A stretch of 32,608 nt of DNA. Source: an uncultured Candidatus Saccharibacteria bacterium (GTDB lineage: Bacteria; Patescibacteria; Saccharimonadia; Saccharimonadales; CAMLKC01). Shown here in pieces: positions 6,437 through 22,036 of this stretch. The translations under genes and the position numbers were made by a program. The stretch is taken from positions 1 through 32,608 of the forward strand of contig CAMLDM010000008.1 in the NCBI GenBank assembly GCA_946479025.1. The letters are read 5' to 3'. Under the pieces are notes generated by a model that was not told where the DNA came from, made no database searches, and saw only the letters and a list, made by a program, of their open reading frames with translations. Within the stretch, counting starts at the first letter, position 1. Each line of letters starts with the position of its first letter.

Positions 6437-7125
6437 TATTTTGCCCCTTTCTTGGTTTCAATGGTCTGGATTTTTCCGTCTTTAATGTGGATCTGCATAT
6501 CGCATTTTTTCGCGAGGTCCGGGTCGTGCGTGACAATAATGAGCGTCACGCCGCGCGCTTTATTGTAGGCGAACAGCAGCTTTTCGATCACGGCGCCCGT
6601 TGCGCTGTCGAGATTTCCCGTCGGTTCGTCGGCAAACAAAATTTTCGGCTCGTTCACGATCGCGCGGGCAATCGCCAGGCGCTGTTTCTGCCCGCCAGAA
6701 AGGTCACGGGCACGGGATTTCTTCTTGTCGTAAAGTTCTACCGCCTGAAGTGCCGCCGCGATTTTTTTGCGGCGTTTGCCTAGGGGTACGTTCGCGATTT
6801 CGAGCGGCAAACTTACGTTATCATAACAACTTTCGTTCGCCTGCACGAAAAAGCTTTGGAAAATAAAGCTCATTTGGTGCGCTCGGAATTCGTCGATCGC
6901 TTTCGTTTTCAGCTTTAAAATATCTTTGCCATCAATAATAACTTCGCCGGTTTCCGGCCGGTCGAGGCCGCTCATGGCGTGCATAAGCGTCGATTTTCCC
7001 GAGCCGGACTTTCCAAGAATTGCCACACTGGCGCCATCCGGAATCGTAAATGTCGCATCATCCAGCGCCGTGAACGCATTATGTTTCTTACCGTACGTTT
7101 TGGTAATGTGCTTTACTTCGATCAT
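6436..7125 (-). CDS. ABC transporter ATP-binding protein (LolD/MacB family)
   Basis: Cytoplasmic ATPase partner of the adjacent permease. The 229 residues contain Walker [10 protein letters not shown] (38-46), signature [14 protein letters not shown] (from 142), Walker [13 protein letters not shown] (from 162) and the switch histidine in VTHD (H200). The [10 protein letters not shown] sequence is characteristic of the MacB/LolD/FtsE group. Its ATG overlaps the stop of the pspC gene (TGATG) and its stop overlaps the permease start, so three proteins are translationally chained. Confidence 0.95.
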
Positions 7126-8750
7126 CAGTTCTCCTCACTTTCTATTGTAAGCGCTACGCATCCCGAATCGTTTGTTTTTGCATCGCGCTTTTTGCCGTTA
7201 ATCGTCATGCTTCCGCTTGCAACGCGCCACACGCTGATGTATGTCTCCGCGGCGTGCGCCGGACAAGACGATTCCTGATCGTTCAGTGTCAGTGTTTGGA
7301 CTGTACCAGCATCTACCTGACTGGAAGTCTTAACGGTTGCCATAAGGTGCTGAATGGTTGCGTCTGCCACTGAAACATTCGCGCCGCGCTCAGCAGTAAT
7401 CGTCACATTTTCCACCCCACCAGAGGTTACGGAAATATCCGCGTTTCCTTGCGCCGTCAGTGTCAGATCATTTTGGTCGGCAGCCTCGTATTTGACCGAT
7501 GACCCCTCGCCTGCCGTCAGCTGCGAAAGCGCGGGACCATAAACGGTGACTGTCGGCTCGCCGCCACAACCCCACCGCGGCAAACACATATCTTCTACCG
7601 TGGCCTGCGCATCGATGCTCAGCATGCCATTCCGCATAGCAAGCGTAATGTCCGGCATTGAGGCGTTGTCTTTCGCAAGCGCGCGCAAAGTTGCCTTCGG
7701 CACACTTTTCGACGCGATATATTGTACGTGCACACCCTTAGCACGAACTGAAAGTGCCGTCATTTTACTTACGGCCGCTGGCATTTTCAACGTTACCTCG
7801 CGGGTATTCGCTTCAATCGTTCTCGTCAGTTGCGTACCGCCAAGATACGTAAGAATGCCGGCCGAGCCAAACGATGCCAGGCCGAGCGTCACTACAACGC
7901 AAATGCTCACGATAACGCGCCGCGTCATCTTCTGTGCGAACGCCGCATATGCACCAAGAATAAACAGCGCCACAAGCAGCAACCCACTCACTATCGCTAA
8001 AATATACGCCGGCAGCAAGTACCCAGAATGCATTACCACGTCGGACAAGCGTGCACGGCCGCTAAGTAGCATCGCGAACGCCGCAAAAACCGTGATGCTT
8101 GCCGCGATAAAGGCACCGAACACGCAGATAACCCCAGCAAGAACCGTAAGGACGCGCCGGCCGTCTGCGCCGCCGCGCGACGATTTGGTTGCCTCAATTT
8201 CATTCTGTTCACGAATCGATTTCACCGTTACTGGACGCCCGGCCATCTGCAACTTATCAGCCGCCGTTTTTGCCTCAGGCACCGCAATCCACAACACGGC
8301 ATACACTAAAATCATCGTACCGAACGATGCCAGCGCCAGAAGAATAAACACAAGGCGCACCCACAGTGGATTTACCTTGAAAAACGCCGCGATGCCGGCC
8401 AGCACGCCGCCGATGACCGCGTTCTCCGTATCACGATAAAGCTTGCGTGGCGTACCGTCACTCGTTTCTGTTTCATCAGGACCGATAGCGATATCACCGT
8501 CTGCCATAAAATCTTCCGGCGCGCCCAGCTGCTTTTTCAGCACCTTTACGTCGGCTGCGGAGATGACGCCATCTCTTTTAACGCCGCGCTCCGCCAGAAT
8601 CTCCGTAATTCGCACCTCGATGTCCTCGATGATTTCCGCGTCGATATTGTATGCTTCGAGCGACGATATATATGCTTCGAGTTCTTTCTTGGCCGCCGTT
8701 TCCACTTCGTACGGTGTTTTTGCGATATGAATTCGTGTGATTTCCTTCAT
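7125..8750 (-). CDS. PspC-domain membrane protein with extracytoplasmic beta-repeat domain
   Basis: A probable envelope-stress sensor of 541 residues. Residues 1-82 are a helical N-terminal domain like that preceding PspC in many Bacteroidota proteins (IIEDIEVRITEILAERG ... LGAPEDF). Residues 102-160 are the PspC domain (KLYRDTENAVIGGVLAGIAA ... VLWIAVPEA) with its helix at 133-157. Three further membrane segments lie near 199-229, 242-270 and 278-303. Residues 315-541 form an outside domain of short Val/Thr/Ser/Gly strands resembling DUF4097/'toastrack' repeats, with cysteines at 389, 395, 496 and 531 that could form disulfides. It follows padR by 11 nt and overlaps the ATPase start. The domain calls other than PspC are from residue pattern only. 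Confidence 0.85.
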   Translation of the reverse strand: MKEITRIHIAKTPYEVETAAKKELEAYISSLEAYNIDAEIIEDIEVRITEILAERGVKRDGVISAADVKVLKKQLGAPEDFMADGDIAIGPDETETSDGTPRKLYRDTENAVIGGVLAGIAAFFKVNPLWVRLVFILLALASFGTMILVYAVLWIAVPEAKTAADKLQMAGRPVTVKSIREQNEIEATKSSRGGADGRRVLTVLAGVICVFGAFIAASITVFAAFAMLLSGRARLSDVVMHSGYLLPAYILAIVSGLLLVALFILGAYAAFAQKMTRRVIVSICVVVTLGLASFGSAGILTYLGGTQLTRTIEANTREVTLKMPAAVSKMTALSVRAKGVHVQYIASKSVPKATLRALAKDNASMPDITLAMRNGMLSIDAQATVEDMCLPRWGCGGEPTVTVYGPALSQLTAGEGSSVKYEAADQNDLTLTAQGNADISVTSGGVENVTITAERGANVSVADATIQHLMATVKTSSQVDAGTVQTLTLNDQESSCPAHAAETYISVWRVASGSMTINGKKRDAKTNDSGCVALTIESEEN

Positions 8751-16804: not shown

Positions 16805-17494
16805 TTATCCTCCAATGCGCCTATCGCGGCGTGAATATTCTTCCAGTATAGCGGCCACGTCGTCTTTTGTCATGTCCGGCCAGAGTTTTTCTAGAAATAT
16901 AAACTCACTGTACGCCGCGCGCCACAGCATGAAGTTACTGAGGCGCTGTTCGCCGCTAGTACGCACGATCAGATCGATCGGCGGGATTTCCGGATAATAC
17001 AGATTCTGCGAAACCACATCCGGCGTAATATCTTCTGCTGGAATGCCGGACTGAACAATATTTTTAACCGCATCGGCAATCTCGAGCTGGCCGCCATAGT
17101 TAAAGCAGATGGCAAGCGTACCGCGTGTATTGTCGGCCGTGCGCGCTTCGGCGTCATTTATAGCTTTTAAAATCTTGTCGCTGACATTTTGTGTGGAACC
17201 GAGAATCTTCAGTCGGATGTTTTCTTCTTCAAAAATATGCAGATCACTCGTGAGCAGCTTAAGCACCAACCCCATGAGCTTGCCGACTTCCTGCTCGCTG
17301 CGCTTCCAGTTTTCTGTGCTGAAAATATATGCCGAAACATACTGAACGCCAGCGTCAAACGTAGCTTTTGCCACGTCTTGAATCGCATTATATCCCGCAA
17401 GGTGTCCTTCGTATGTTGGTATGCCGTGCGTTTTTGCCCAGCGGCGGTTGCCGTCAACGACATAACCAACGTGGCGTGGGATACCTCCGGCCAT
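16805..17494 (-). CDS. uppS: Undecaprenyl diphosphate synthase (cis-prenyltransferase)
   Basis: Condenses IPP onto FPP to make the C55 lipid carrier of wall synthesis. The 229 residues contain the catalytic Asp in HVGYVVDGNRRWAK (D14), the substrate motif STENWKRS, the VRTSGEQRLSNFMLW region and the C-terminal RRDRRIGG. Length is slightly shorter than the usual 240-260. The ATG overlaps the frr stop by one base (TAATG), giving tight coupling. With no dxr next to it, the isoprenoid precursors may be scavenged. Confidence 0.95.
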   Translation of the reverse strand: MAGGIPRHVGYVVDGNRRWAKTHGIPTYEGHLAGYNAIQDVAKATFDAGVQYVSAYIFSTENWKRSEQEVGKLMGLVLKLLTSDLHIFEEENIRLKILGSTQNVSDKILKAINDAEARTADNTRGTLAICFNYGGQLEIADAVKNIVQSGIPAEDITPDVVSQNLYYPEIPPIDLIVRTSGEQRLSNFMLWRAAYSEFIFLEKLWPDMTKDDVAAILEEYSRRDRRIGG

Positions 17495-18048
17495 TAGATC
17501 GTTAAGATATCCTTCTCTTTGGCCTTGAACGCCGCGTCGATTTTTTCCTGGTAGTCGCTCATCAGCTTATCGAACTCTTTCTCAATGTGTTTGACGTCGT
17601 CTTCGCTCAGCTCCTTGGCTTCTTTCTTGCGCTTAGCGTCTTTCAGTCCGTCCTGACGAATGTTACGCAGAGCAATACGCACTTCTTCTACTTTTTCACC
17701 GGTCTGCTTTACCAGCTGGCGGCGGCGCTCCTCAGTGAGCGGCGGCACTGGCACGCGCACAATGCGGCCGTCATCACTCGGATTGAACCCAAGGGACTGG
17801 TCGGCGCGAATAGCGGCGGCAATAACCTGGACGTTACTTGGATCAAACGGTGTTACCTGTAACAGCTGCGGCTCGGGCGCAGTAATATTCGCCACCTGGT
17901 TGAGCGGCATTTTCTGGCCGTACGCCTCGACCTGTACGCTATCGAGCATGCTCGGGTGCGAGCGTCCGGTGCGGACTTTTTTCAGCTCGTCTTCAAAATG
18001 CGCGAGCGCGAGCGTCATTTTTTCTTCGTAGGGATCGGTATTAAACAT
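17494..18048 (-). CDS. frr: Ribosome recycling factor
   Basis: Splits post-termination ribosomes with EF-G. The 184 residues match the normal 185. Family landmarks are the N-terminal FEDELKKVRTGRSHPSMLD, the mid region ANITAPEPQLLQVTPFD, and the helical bundle with PVPPLTEERRRQLVKQ and VRIALRNIRQD. It begins the frr-uppS-rseP-CPBP unit. The ATG has no ribosome binding site but a -10-like TAAAAT 6 nt upstream, so it may be leaderless. pyrH, its usual upstream neighbour, is missing; a GC-rich foreign-looking gene occupies that place. Confidence 0.97.
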   Translation of the reverse strand: MFNTDPYEEKMTLALAHFEDELKKVRTGRSHPSMLDSVQVEAYGQKMPLNQVANITAPEPQLLQVTPFDPSNVQVIAAAIRADQSLGFNPSDDGRIVRVPVPPLTEERRRQLVKQTGEKVEEVRIALRNIRQDGLKDAKRKKEAKELSEDDVKHIEKEFDKLMSDYQEKIDAAFKAKEKDILTI

Positions 18049-18060: not shown

Positions 18061-18121
18061 ACATGAATCAGCCCGTCACCTCACACACATCCGGCCCTTC
18101 CTCTATGTTTAGGCATGAAGC

Positions 18122-18151
18122 AGCCCCGTCTCGCTTGCGCGTGACGGGGCT
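18122..18151 (-). terminator. GC-rich hairpin after the secreted-protein gene
   Basis: Perfect 9-bp stem AGCCCCGTC/GACGGGGCT (18122-18130 with 18143-18151) with a 12-nt loop. No T run follows on the minus strand, so it resembles the U-poor terminators of high-GC bacteria more than its neighbours here. Confidence 0.5.
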
Positions 18152-18183
18152 CCCTCGGGAACGCTTGCTGGGTTGAAGAAAAG

Positions 18184-18867
18184 TCACAGCCACATGACCT
18201 CGGCGAGGACGCTCTGCACGAGCGACTCGTCGATGTCGTAGTCGCCGTTGTCGGCGGCCTCGATGGCGACACCGCCCTCCTGGTCGTACCAGAAGTAGTT
18301 GTCCGTGCCGTCCTGGCAGCCCTGGTAGTAGAACTTGACAGCCGTCCCGCCCATCTTGGTGTCGACCGGGCCCTGCAGGGGGTCGGGTACGCTCTGAGCG
18401 CAGGCCTGCTGCTTCCAGCTCGCGACCGGGTCGTCGCCGTAGGTGTTGCCCCACGACGGCGATTTCCGACTCACGATCGTGATGGTCGGGCACGCGGTGT
18501 CCGCCGGGCACTTCTGGACGATGTCGAGCCTGTTGGCGTCGACCTCAGGAGGCGTGTTCAGCCACCAGCTCTTGCTCGGGTACGATAGCCGCAGCTGCGT
18601 CCCGAGCGTCGCCCAGCCATCGCCGTTGAACGGCTTGGTCTGAGGCACGGTCAGGACACCGGTGGGCGTGATCGGCGCCGGCGTGGCCGCCGGGCTGCTC
18701 GGCTGGGCCGAGGTCACCTTGGGAGCCGCGACGGACGCGGCCGTGACATCGTTGCCGGAGCTGATCATCAGGGTGGCGACGGCACCGACCAGGAGCAGAA
18801 TCACGACGGCCATCGCACTGATGACGATCGCGACCTTGTTCTTGCGTACACGCTCGGGAAGCTGCAC
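18184..18867 (-). CDS. GC-rich membrane-anchored extracellular protein, probably acquired
   Basis: I do not recognise the family. The 227-residue protein has a basic start (MQLPERVRKNK), one membrane helix (about 12-34), a Pro/Ala/Thr/Ser-rich linker (42-80) and a compact outside domain of about 145 residues rich in Trp, Tyr and Asp with four cysteines (120, 126, 156, 184), suggesting two disulfides. GTG at 18867 is chosen: GGAG lies 6 nt before it; an in-frame TTG four codons upstream overlaps that site. Codon choice is strongly G/C-ending; two 60-base lines counted by hand are 65% and 72% GC against 52% in frr. It sits between tsf and frr with its own promoter and hairpin. Actinobacterial origin is an inference. 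Confidence 0.8.
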   Translation of the reverse strand: MQLPERVRKNKVAIVISAMAVVILLLVGAVATLMISSGNDVTAASVAAPKVTSAQPSSPAATPAPITPTGVLTVPQTKPFNGDGWATLGTQLRLSYPSKSWWLNTPPEVDANRLDIVQKCPADTACPTITIVSRKSPSWGNTYGDDPVASWKQQACAQSVPDPLQGPVDTKMGGTAVKFYYQGCQDGTDNYFWYDQEGGVAIEAADNGDYDIDESLVQSVLAEVMWL

Positions 18868-18895
18868 GGTAATCTCCAATTCTCTCGAGGATCTT

Positions 18896-18917
18896 CCCCG
18901 GTAGCGTTCTACCGAAG
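18896..18917 (-). promoter_or_regulatory. Leader hairpin of the secreted-protein gene
   Basis: Six perfect base pairs CGGTAG/CTACCG (18899-18904 with 18909-18914), extended by two G-U pairs and one G-C to 18896-18917, closed by a 4-nt loop. It lies in the 5' leader between promoter and ribosome binding site. Function unknown; mRNA stabilisation is possible. Confidence 0.5.
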
Positions 18918-18926
18918 GTTAGGTAA

Positions 18927-18955
18927 ATAATACCATATATTATTAATATTTGCAA
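18927..18955 (-). promoter_or_regulatory. Promoter of the secreted-protein gene
   Basis: TTGCAA (18950-18955), 17-nt AT-only-like spacer, and extended -10 TGGTATTAT (hexamer 18927-18932). The AT-rich promoter contrasts with the GC-rich coding region it serves. Confidence 0.72.
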
Positions 18956-18992: not shown

Positions 18993-19021
18993 AAAATACC
19001 CGGCCTAAAACCGGGTATTTT
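18993..19021 (-). terminator. rpsB-tsf terminator
   Basis: Perfect 11-bp stem (18993-19003 with 19011-19021), 7-nt loop, and TTTTT on the minus strand, 17 nt after the tsf stop. It marks the end of the rpsB-tsf operon. Confidence 0.88.
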
Positions 19022-19038: not shown

Positions 19039-19635
19039 CTATTCGCTTACGCCGAGCTCAATTCGCTTGAACTGGCGAACGATAACATTCTCGCCCAGTT
19101 TCGCGATGTTTTCTTTTACGTAATCTTCCACACTCTTCTTGTCGTCGAGGATGAACTGCTGACTCATCAGCACCTTCTCTGCGAAGTGCTTTTTCACCTG
19201 GCCGTCGACGATCTTTTCAGCGATCTCGGCAGGCTTGCCTTCAGCCTTCACGCGCTCCATTGCTTCCGCGCGAACGCGCTCCATTTCTTCGGCTGGGATA
19301 TCAGCTTCCGAAACGTACTGCGGGCTCATAGCAGCAATCTGCATAGCGATTTCGTGTGCGAGCTTCTTGAAATCGTCGAGACGGGCAACGAAGTCGGTTT
19401 CACAGTTGACTTCCACTACCACGCCAATGCGGCCGCTGTGAACGTAGCTGTCGATCACGCCTTCGCGAGCTTCGCGGTCACCTTTTTTCTCTGCGCGGGT
19501 CAGACCTTTTTTGCGCATTGCTTCAAGGGCCTTGTCGAAGTCGCCGTCGGCTTCTACGAGCGCGCCTTTGGCGTCGGTCAGGCCAACACCGGTCAGTTCT
19601 TTGAGTTTTTTAATGTCTTCGATAGAAACAGCCAC
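19039..19635 (-). CDS. tsf: Elongation factor Ts
   Basis: Guanine-nucleotide exchange factor for EF-Tu. At 198 residues it is the short form (E. coli has 283), as in Thermus and other compact versions with a single core subdomain. The N-terminal UBA-like domain (IKKLKELTGVGLTDAKGALV) and the exchange motif CETDFVAR (TDFV at 80-83) are intact. I start at the GTG at 19635: GAGGAG is 7 nt upstream and the product begins MAVSIEDIKKL as the family does. A longer reading would extend 12 codons into rpsB. One base separates it from the rpsB stop. Confidence 0.96.
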   Translation of the reverse strand: MAVSIEDIKKLKELTGVGLTDAKGALVEADGDFDKALEAMRKKGLTRAEKKGDREAREGVIDSYVHSGRIGVVVEVNCETDFVARLDDFKKLAHEIAMQIAAMSPQYVSEADIPAEEMERVRAEAMERVKAEGKPAEIAEKIVDGQVKKHFAEKVLMSQQFILDDKKSVEDYVKENIAKLGENVIVRQFKRIELGVSE

Positions 19636-21047: not shown

Positions 21048-21989
21048 TCAGGAGGGTATGCCATCACCCTCCTTTTTACTGGTCTCGGGCCAGACCCTAC
21101 TGGCCGCGACGCTCCCCAGAAGAACCGTGGCGATGAACACCAGGCTCACCCAGGTGGGCGGCTCGTATTCTGGCAGAAAATAGCCGAGGATCATCTTGGC
21201 GCCGACGCCAGCGAGAATGACCGCCAGACCCTCATCCAGCCGAGTGAACTTACTTTTTACCCGGTCGAACAAAAAGTACAGCGACCGCAGCCCCATGATC
21301 GCCATCGCGTTCGAACTGAACACAATAAACGGATCACGGGAGATCGCCAGCACCGCTGGCACGGAGTCGATCGCAAACACGATGTCGACCAACCCGATAA
21401 CCATGGCACAAAGCAGCAGTACCGTGACCTTCAGCTTCCCGCCCTCGCGGACAAAAAACTTGGTACCGCGCCAGCCTCTAGCGACGGGCAGACAGCGGGC
21501 AAGTACCCGGTAGGCGAACATCTCGCTCACGTCTTTGGGGTTGTCGTCGCTCAGGGCCAGACCGATGCCGGTCCAAACCAAGAACGCGCCCATGACGACC
21601 ATCATCCACTCGAAGCGATTGATGACCGTCACGCCGGCAAGGACAAAAACGAACCGCAGCACTACGGCGCACATGATGCCCCAGAACAACACGGCGTGCT
21701 GGCTCACCTTAGGAACAGCGAAGAACCCAATGATGAACGACCACACGAACACATTGTCCACGCTCAGCGAATACTCCACAACGTACCCCGCAAGGTACTG
21801 CTGAACGTTTTCGGCGCCAAATCCGGTAAGCGCCAAGCCGGCGGCGAACGCCAGTCCAAGCGTCATCCAGAGCAGCGTTTGTACCGTCGCCTGCTTAAGC
21901 GACGTTGCCTCTTTCCCCCGGCCTAGCACCAGGAGGTCGAGCACGAGCGCGACAACGATTACCACCGTGAACACCATCCAGTGCGTCAC
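21048..21989 (-). CDS. TerC/Alx-family membrane protein
   Basis: A polytopic protein of 313 residues with about eight to nine helices. The family motifs are EYSLSVDNVFVWSFI and DIVFAIDSVPAVLAISRDPF, whose acidic residues in the membrane are conserved, plus SNAMAIMGLRSLYFL. TerC/Alx proteins act in tellurite resistance, manganese export and metallation of secreted proteins. GTG at 21989 is chosen because AAGGAGGTGA lies 7 nt upstream; a GTG three codons earlier overlaps that site. This is the best Shine-Dalgarno match in the window. It is inserted between an iron-permease-family gene and rpmE; horizontal acquisition is possible but composition is only mildly different. Confidence 0.93.
   Translation of the reverse strand: MTHWMVFTVVIVVALVLDLLVLGRGKEATSLKQATVQTLLWMTLGLAFAAGLALTGFGAENVQQYLAGYVVEYSLSVDNVFVWSFIIGFFAVPKVSQHAVLFWGIMCAVVLRFVFVLAGVTVINRFEWMMVVMGAFLVWTGIGLALSDDNPKDVSEMFAYRVLARCLPVARGWRGTKFFVREGGKLKVTVLLLCAMVIGLVDIVFAIDSVPAVLAISRDPFIVFSSNAMAIMGLRSLYFLFDRVKSKFTRLDEGLAVILAGVGAKMILGYFLPEYEPPTWVSLVFIATVLLGSVAASRVWPETSKKEGDGIPS
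21050..21077 (+). terminator. Terminator of the iron-permease gene inside the terC 3' end
   Basis: 8-bp stem (21050-21057 with 21066-21073), 8-nt loop and T tract to 21077 on the plus strand. The same bases encode the last codons of terC on the minus strand. Confidence 0.75.
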
Positions 21990-22036
21990 GGCTCTCACCT
22001 CCTTAAACTCTCTCTTTCTCTTAATGAGACTCCACT

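Follow-up and report, generated by a model that had tools for sequence, protein, structure and literature searches.

In a 32,608-nucleotide stretch of DNA from an uncultured Candidatus Saccharibacteria bacterium (contig CAMLDM010000008.1, positions 1 to 32,608; this whole stretch is called the window), a 227-codon gene, hereafter X (18184-18867, minus strand), lies between tsf and frr. With roughly even confidence, we read X as the gene of a clade-specific, fast-evolving, stalked envelope-binding protein that has its own promoter-leader, occupies a cargo slot, and combines an old foreign origin with some later exchange; its function is one that we infer. The first-pass annotation had proposed a recent, genome-specific acquisition, and this part of it fell: X is not a fresh insertion, because diverged relatives occupy the same slot behind the same AT-rich promoter-leader, in five other genomes.

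The composition of X sets it apart from the rest of the window. Translation starts with GTG at 18867, preceded by GGAG, and the stop codon ends at 18184. The G+C content (GC) of the gene is 0.67 and that of its third codon positions (GC3) is 0.91, against a GC3 of 0.47-0.65, and 0.77 in one case, in the 31 other open reading frames (ORFs) taken as window genes. Indeed, when the rest of the window was sampled in 684-base stretches at 20-base steps, GC reached a maximum of 0.592 (mean 0.522, sd 0.024), compared with 0.668 in X, and the block of G/C-ending codons noticed earlier between tsf and frr was found again (GC 0.65 and 0.72 in the 60-base lines at 18240 and 18360). In the protein, the sole hydrophobic stretch begins at residue 9, behind a basic N-terminus, and hydropathy delimits a single N-terminal membrane helix region at about residues 9-37 (18757-18843, minus), the structural model placing the helix at residues 11-27 with low confidence. 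It is followed by a linker (residues 39-82; 18622-18753, minus) composed for 61% of proline, alanine, threonine and serine, and by a domain with four cysteines (residues 120, 126, 156, and 184), all past the helix. The anchor, linker and outside cysteines that had been described are thus all seen, and these sequence features argue for an exported one-helix protein, as initially suggested. The interval first given (18068-18917) covers X, but it cuts the leader described below and takes in about 50 bases between the 3' hairpin and frr.

The genomic context was examined in related genomes. A search of genome contigs with rpsB confirmed 528 loci, the best 80 of which (L001-L080) form the basis of the counts in this paragraph. 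The top match was 86% identical, and 59 of the 80 titles named Saccharibacteria, Saccharimonadia, TM7 or a genus thereof, the remaining ones reading "bacterium" or Patescibacteria, with one Nomurabacteria, in line with the proposed Saccharibacteria-type source. Both flanks of the slot, identified in the window as tsf (19039-19635, minus; Pfam EF_TS) upstream and frr (17494-18048, minus; Pfam RRF) downstream, were visible in 65 of these loci and not in 15. The gap between them was shorter than 200 bases in 26 of the 65 and measured 222-4257 bases in the other 39. By eye, the short gaps run from tsf, usually through a terminator-like stem, to a -10-like site and frr. The filled gaps contain different genes, which makes the tsf-frr interval a variable cargo slot: mutually homologous ATPases in 12 loci (the one tested, L012, matched Pfam RecF/RecN/SMC) and type IV pilin-like proteins in about six (five by motif, L007 by BLAST), with a Pfam N_methyl match for L008 and no Pfam pilin family for the pilin-like ORF of L034. 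Genes of the endonuclease/phosphatase type, of the HAD type and for an amidohydrolase were seen as single cases. The idea that X had been placed at the expected site of pyrH, in a tsf-pyrH-frr order, was contradicted by the 26 short gaps and by the location of pyrH itself, which scored above the cut-off in 10 of 13 genomes, gave no hit in the other three, and never lay in the slot of slot-carrying genomes; it was found on other contigs in G002, G004, G024, and G056 and about 97 kb away in G049. Literature searches on Saccharibacteria together with tsf and frr, or with the proteins' full names, found no paper in the library used.

Relatives of X were recovered by profiles. In a word-limited search against 5.8 billion proteins, the X protein matched itself only, and the L002 protein retrieved itself and nine weak proteins (E 0.011-1.0), X not being among them. 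A 6-row profile search of proteins found both X and the L002 protein; X-like proteins are held by the slots of L002 and L004, and profiles added G049 (L085), G024 (L086), G056 (L088), G033 (L101), and G070 (L110). With a full-length profile, A2, matches came from 51 of 392 genomes, mostly over the helix and linker only, and this profile was therefore replaced by a domain-only profile, A4, run on 394 family, 392 order and 346 phylum genomes in overlapping draws. Seven carriers were counted (G002, G004, G024, G033, G049, G056, and G070), leaving out weak hits in G109 (E 0.006) and G838 (E 0.0096); the protein of L087 (G088), anchored and encoded at another place of the genome, was not counted as a member. 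In five of the seven, as in the window, the X-type gene lies between tsf and frr. That of G033 lies elsewhere, is lipoprotein-like, and has a neighbor that we take to be tsaE; the slot of G033 (L183:8751-9164) is filled by another ORF, of 137 amino acids and opposite orientation, with a GC3 of 0.59 and no match in Pfam. The G070 gene, outside the slot, is one of three (L004, L088, and L110) in which the X domain is fused to an alpha/beta hydrolase that carries an export-type segment at its N-terminus; a search with the hydrolase part of L088 gave six records from several phyla, including Streptomyces (34.5% over 46% of the length). The X proteins have diverged far more than their neighbors: identity between the window and L085, L086, and L002 is 24, 23, and 20%, and 16-36% among these four, vs. 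82-88% for tsf. An assembly join was considered unlikely, since the assemblies of L002, L085, L086, and G056 also show tsf-X-frr. No X relative was found in IMG/VR and phage records, and the actinobacterial donor that had been put forward was not recovered, no actinobacterial homologue of the X domain appearing in protein searches, which were word-limited, or in plasmids.

The slot copies of X share a promoter-leader (18893-18937, minus), made of an extended -10-like site, TATGGTATTAT, and a short stem-loop. It is common to the X-type genes or operons of five slot relatives, and so present in 6/6 slot X loci (window, L002, L086, L085, G056, and L004). A promoter-like site lies at 18927-18955, and the local AT-rich promoter region initially proposed before X is borne out by this shared leader. 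In G056 and L004, the leader stands ahead of a small gene that precedes the hydrolase fusion, which is why the two probably form one operon; small genes for one-helix proteins upstream of a hydrolase fusion were seen at L004:2031-2468 and L185:6955-7356. A covariance model, R1, built from the six slot leaders, scored 52.4 bits at the window leader, a training sequence. Over 985 kb (the window and the whole 952,504-base G049 contig), its only clear matches were the two X loci, followed by two weak hits with E 0.87 and 3.3; over 950 kb of other loci, the four remaining training sites came first and L101 next (18.1 bits, E 1.8), with a score not above chance but a position that favors it, 34-70 bases upstream of the relocated X gene of G033. 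Short tsf-frr slots gave no leader match, by pattern or by R1, so that the leader appears to go with X rather than with the slot. A loose form of the pattern also matched inside an ORF of L034, which was taken as chance. Support for the stem-loop, pair covariation included, is modest. No consensus structure of the leader emerged from RNAalifold; with a structure that we named, double changes occurred in three of nine pairs, which 25 of 500 shuffles reach, and the share of cells paired was no better than in shuffled alignments (211/500). The leaders of the window, L085, and L004 folded better than almost every shuffle; those of L002, L086, and G056 did not.

Downstream of X, the GC-rich hairpin without a U run that had been reported was found at 18117-18156 (minus; arms 18117-18134 and 18139-18156), with -33.6 kcal/mol for 18105-18166 (z -5.6), and hairpins of similar layout lie 3' of the gene in L085, L086, and L002. 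GC-rich inverted repeats, again lacking a U run, were also seen by eye behind the two high-GC3 DUF3558-like genes (L170:2053-2160 and L195:1130-1233). As for the tsf terminator, described as intact, a stem scan found a terminator-like hairpin followed by a T-rich tail at 18993-19021 (minus), and comparable T-tailed stems follow tsf in L085, L086, and L002. The scan for terminator-like and promoter-like sites is weak by itself, because its counts were no higher than in shuffles (2 vs. 1.5 and 5 vs. 4.5).

Codon usage bears on the origin of X. Seven of the eight X members had a raised GC3, both in the slot and at two sites outside it. In G049, GC3 averages 0.487 (sd 0.070; 755 ORFs, 800 kb), and 25 of the 833 ORFs of at least 120 amino acids on the whole contig exceed 0.65, the X-type gene included and some being probably shadow ORFs; two of the 25 have codon scores of -0.17 and -0.18. 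That X is GC-rich because it is exported was rejected, since the single-N-terminal-helix proteins of G049 are normal in GC3 (mean 0.491, n=59, X-type gene included). Once the effect of GC3 is removed, the codon choice of the X members is intermediate between that of native and that of actinobacterial genes in the window (+0.021), L085, L086, L101, L002, and L088; L004 (-0.128) and L110 (-0.065) score at the native level or shifted towards it. X thus looks foreign in the window, G049, G024, G056, G002, and G033, in accordance with the first-pass annotation, with a codon choice that is shifted but intermediate, not fully actinobacterial. That annotation had regarded close homologues with native codon usage at this locus as the contrary case; homologues do stand there in near relatives, but their GC3 is non-native too. 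When the window is compared with its three nearest relatives, the four-fold sites of tsf and frr are 0.33-0.42 identical, close to saturation (L085 vs. L086: 0.57 for tsf, 0.21 for frr). If X was inherited from the common ancestor, it has therefore been resident long enough for its silent sites to be randomized, and its persistently high GC3 implies that it was exchanged or re-imported, or that something holds GC3 high. Other genes rich in GC3 were also observed. In the window, a TerC-family membrane protein gene (21048-21998, minus) has the second highest GC3 among the listed genes, 0.77, with a codon choice apart from GC3 (-0.085) inside the native range. High-GC3 accessory genes are scattered in G049 (L140-L179 and L187-L194), e.g., L170:1441-2052 and L170:14272-16584; they include a lipoprotein-like gene that matches DUF3558 weakly, below the cut-off, and has a 30% relative in G056 (GC3 0.80), and a GDSL hydrolase whose relatives have low GC3 in G033 and G002 and 0.70, with an internal stop, in G056.

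Structure prediction and fold searches assign to the four-cysteine domain (18187-18618, minus) a predicted Mog1/PsbP/LpqN-like fold. AlphaFold, run on X with eight sequences, gave a beta-rich domain with a mean predicted local distance difference test (pLDDT) of 76-94 in blocks of residues 111-220 and only 50-59 in residues 84-110; modeled alone, the domain reached a pLDDT of 77.9 and a predicted template modeling score (pTM) of 0.75. The top Foldseek row was PsbP (E 5.7e-4, TM-score 0.35/0.47). In a second structure search, where rows within 1 Z were treated as tied, the X model ranked Apa (9.8), TplEi (9.1), Mog1 (9.0), LpqN (9.0), Jonesia 3lyd (8.4), and MTC28 (7.3), while the domain-only model was led by SciW (8.1), Mog1 (8.0), DcrB (7.8), Apa (7.7), and LpqN (7.3), values at the usual background level of the tool. 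The top rows are filled by one class, to which the modeled domain therefore likely belongs. A fold shared with actinobacterial envelope proteins is thus predicted, near mycobacterial Apa, LpqN, and MTC28, a resemblance that is suggestive at the level of models. By sequence, the only Pfam match was DUF6346, in the helix region at E 0.11; NCBIfam yielded four weak matches in the helix and linker (best FliL, E 0.0002, 20.9 bits against a cut-off of 187), and a PDB sequence search no family.

From a mechanistic point of view, X would be expressed, as tsf-frr cargo, from its own AT-rich promoter and short conserved leader. The protein would insert by its single N-terminal helix, probably with the N-terminus inside, its stalk of proline, alanine, threonine, and serine projecting outward and ending in a domain of the predicted fold, presumably disulfide-capable, outside the membrane. 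By analogy with mycobacterial Apa, MTC28, and LpqN, its most likely work would be to bind an envelope lipid, glycan or protein, its own or the host's, and in the hydrolase fusions of three relatives the domain may act as a binding or targeting module. X may have a role in contact with another cell. The high-GC coding sequence would be foreign but not newly imported into this genome: it would have entered the clade before the species split, with some exchange among Saccharibacteria since then.

Trees bear on how far inheritance and exchange each contributed. The eight-member domain tree rejected all four alternative topologies tried, the species-like ones with approximately unbiased (AU) test p values of 0.0012 and 0.0002, while the six-member tree did not reject species-like trees (p 0.07-0.09), and support at the nodes of the species tree concerned is weak (30-69%). 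Recurrent import, in which each genome took its own high-GC sequence from actinobacterial hosts by natural transformation into the same slot, would suit the high GC3 of X between nearly saturated flanks, its low identity beside conserved tsf, its partly actinobacterial codon score, and the natural competence reported for cultivated Saccharibacteria (PMC10633639). We nevertheless consider it unlikely, since no donor-side homologue of the domain was found in the searches above, near relatives share the leader and have 3' hairpins resembling that of X, as a single inherited unit would, and a vertical history among six members was not rejected. Moreover, in an aquifer study, the majority of transfers into Patescibacteria, 109 events, had other Patescibacteria as donors, and one came from Actinomycetota (PMC12455944); such donors make exchange among epibionts a better fit than steady host uptake.

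The old foreign origin with some exchange that we favor must also be weighed against a purely vertical gene, whose high GC3 would be kept by selection or local coding-sequence bias. The GC3 excess in seven of eight members, at the slot and two other places, and the conserved AT-rich leader agree with this, but it is likewise improbable in our view: codon choice apart from GC3 is shifted too, the G049 proteins with a single N-terminal helix show no GC3 excess as a group, and L004 is native in codon use. Doubtful to a greater degree is the idea that the slot is an expression site, in which the conserved leader and 3' hairpin frame a surface-protein sequence repeatedly swapped by natural transformation for high-GC versions from actinobacterial hosts or other epibionts; such swapping, if true, would alter host contact. 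An immunity- or inhibitor-like protein, with a domain that would hold in check a hydrolase such as a lipase, its own or a foreign one, outside the membrane, seems very unlikely, given that the four stand-alone slot genes have no adjoining hydrolase-sized gene in the slot and that the fold is common to many functions.

As a putative envelope-binding protein, X offers a concrete candidate for the host contact of ultrasmall epibionts: its outer domain, stalked and of the disulfide type, varies far more than its neighbors do. This domain was found here only in a few related genomes, in some of them fused to a hydrolase, and a persistently high-GC gene between nearly saturated flanks provides a test case for gene exchange between epibiont and host. 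Elsewhere in the window, a 541-amino-acid protein (7125-8750, minus) bears PspC and DUF2807 (adhesin-head type) domains and six cysteines.

Among known systems, the PsbP/Mog1/DcrB fold class fills top fold-search rows, but its functions and partners are unrelated to X, which has no Pfam match beyond DUF6346. The predicted fold of the X domain is similar to that of two Mycobacterium tuberculosis proteins, the fibronectin-binding Apa and MTC28 (Rv0040c), a secreted proline-rich antigen; unlike them, X has a membrane helix and four cysteines, and the likeness comes with no sequence match and a structural-alignment identity of 6-7%. Compared with LpqN, which takes part in cell envelope biogenesis in M. 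tuberculosis, X is helix-anchored, with no lipobox by eye, whereas its G033 relative (L101) looks, in our reading, like a lipoprotein.
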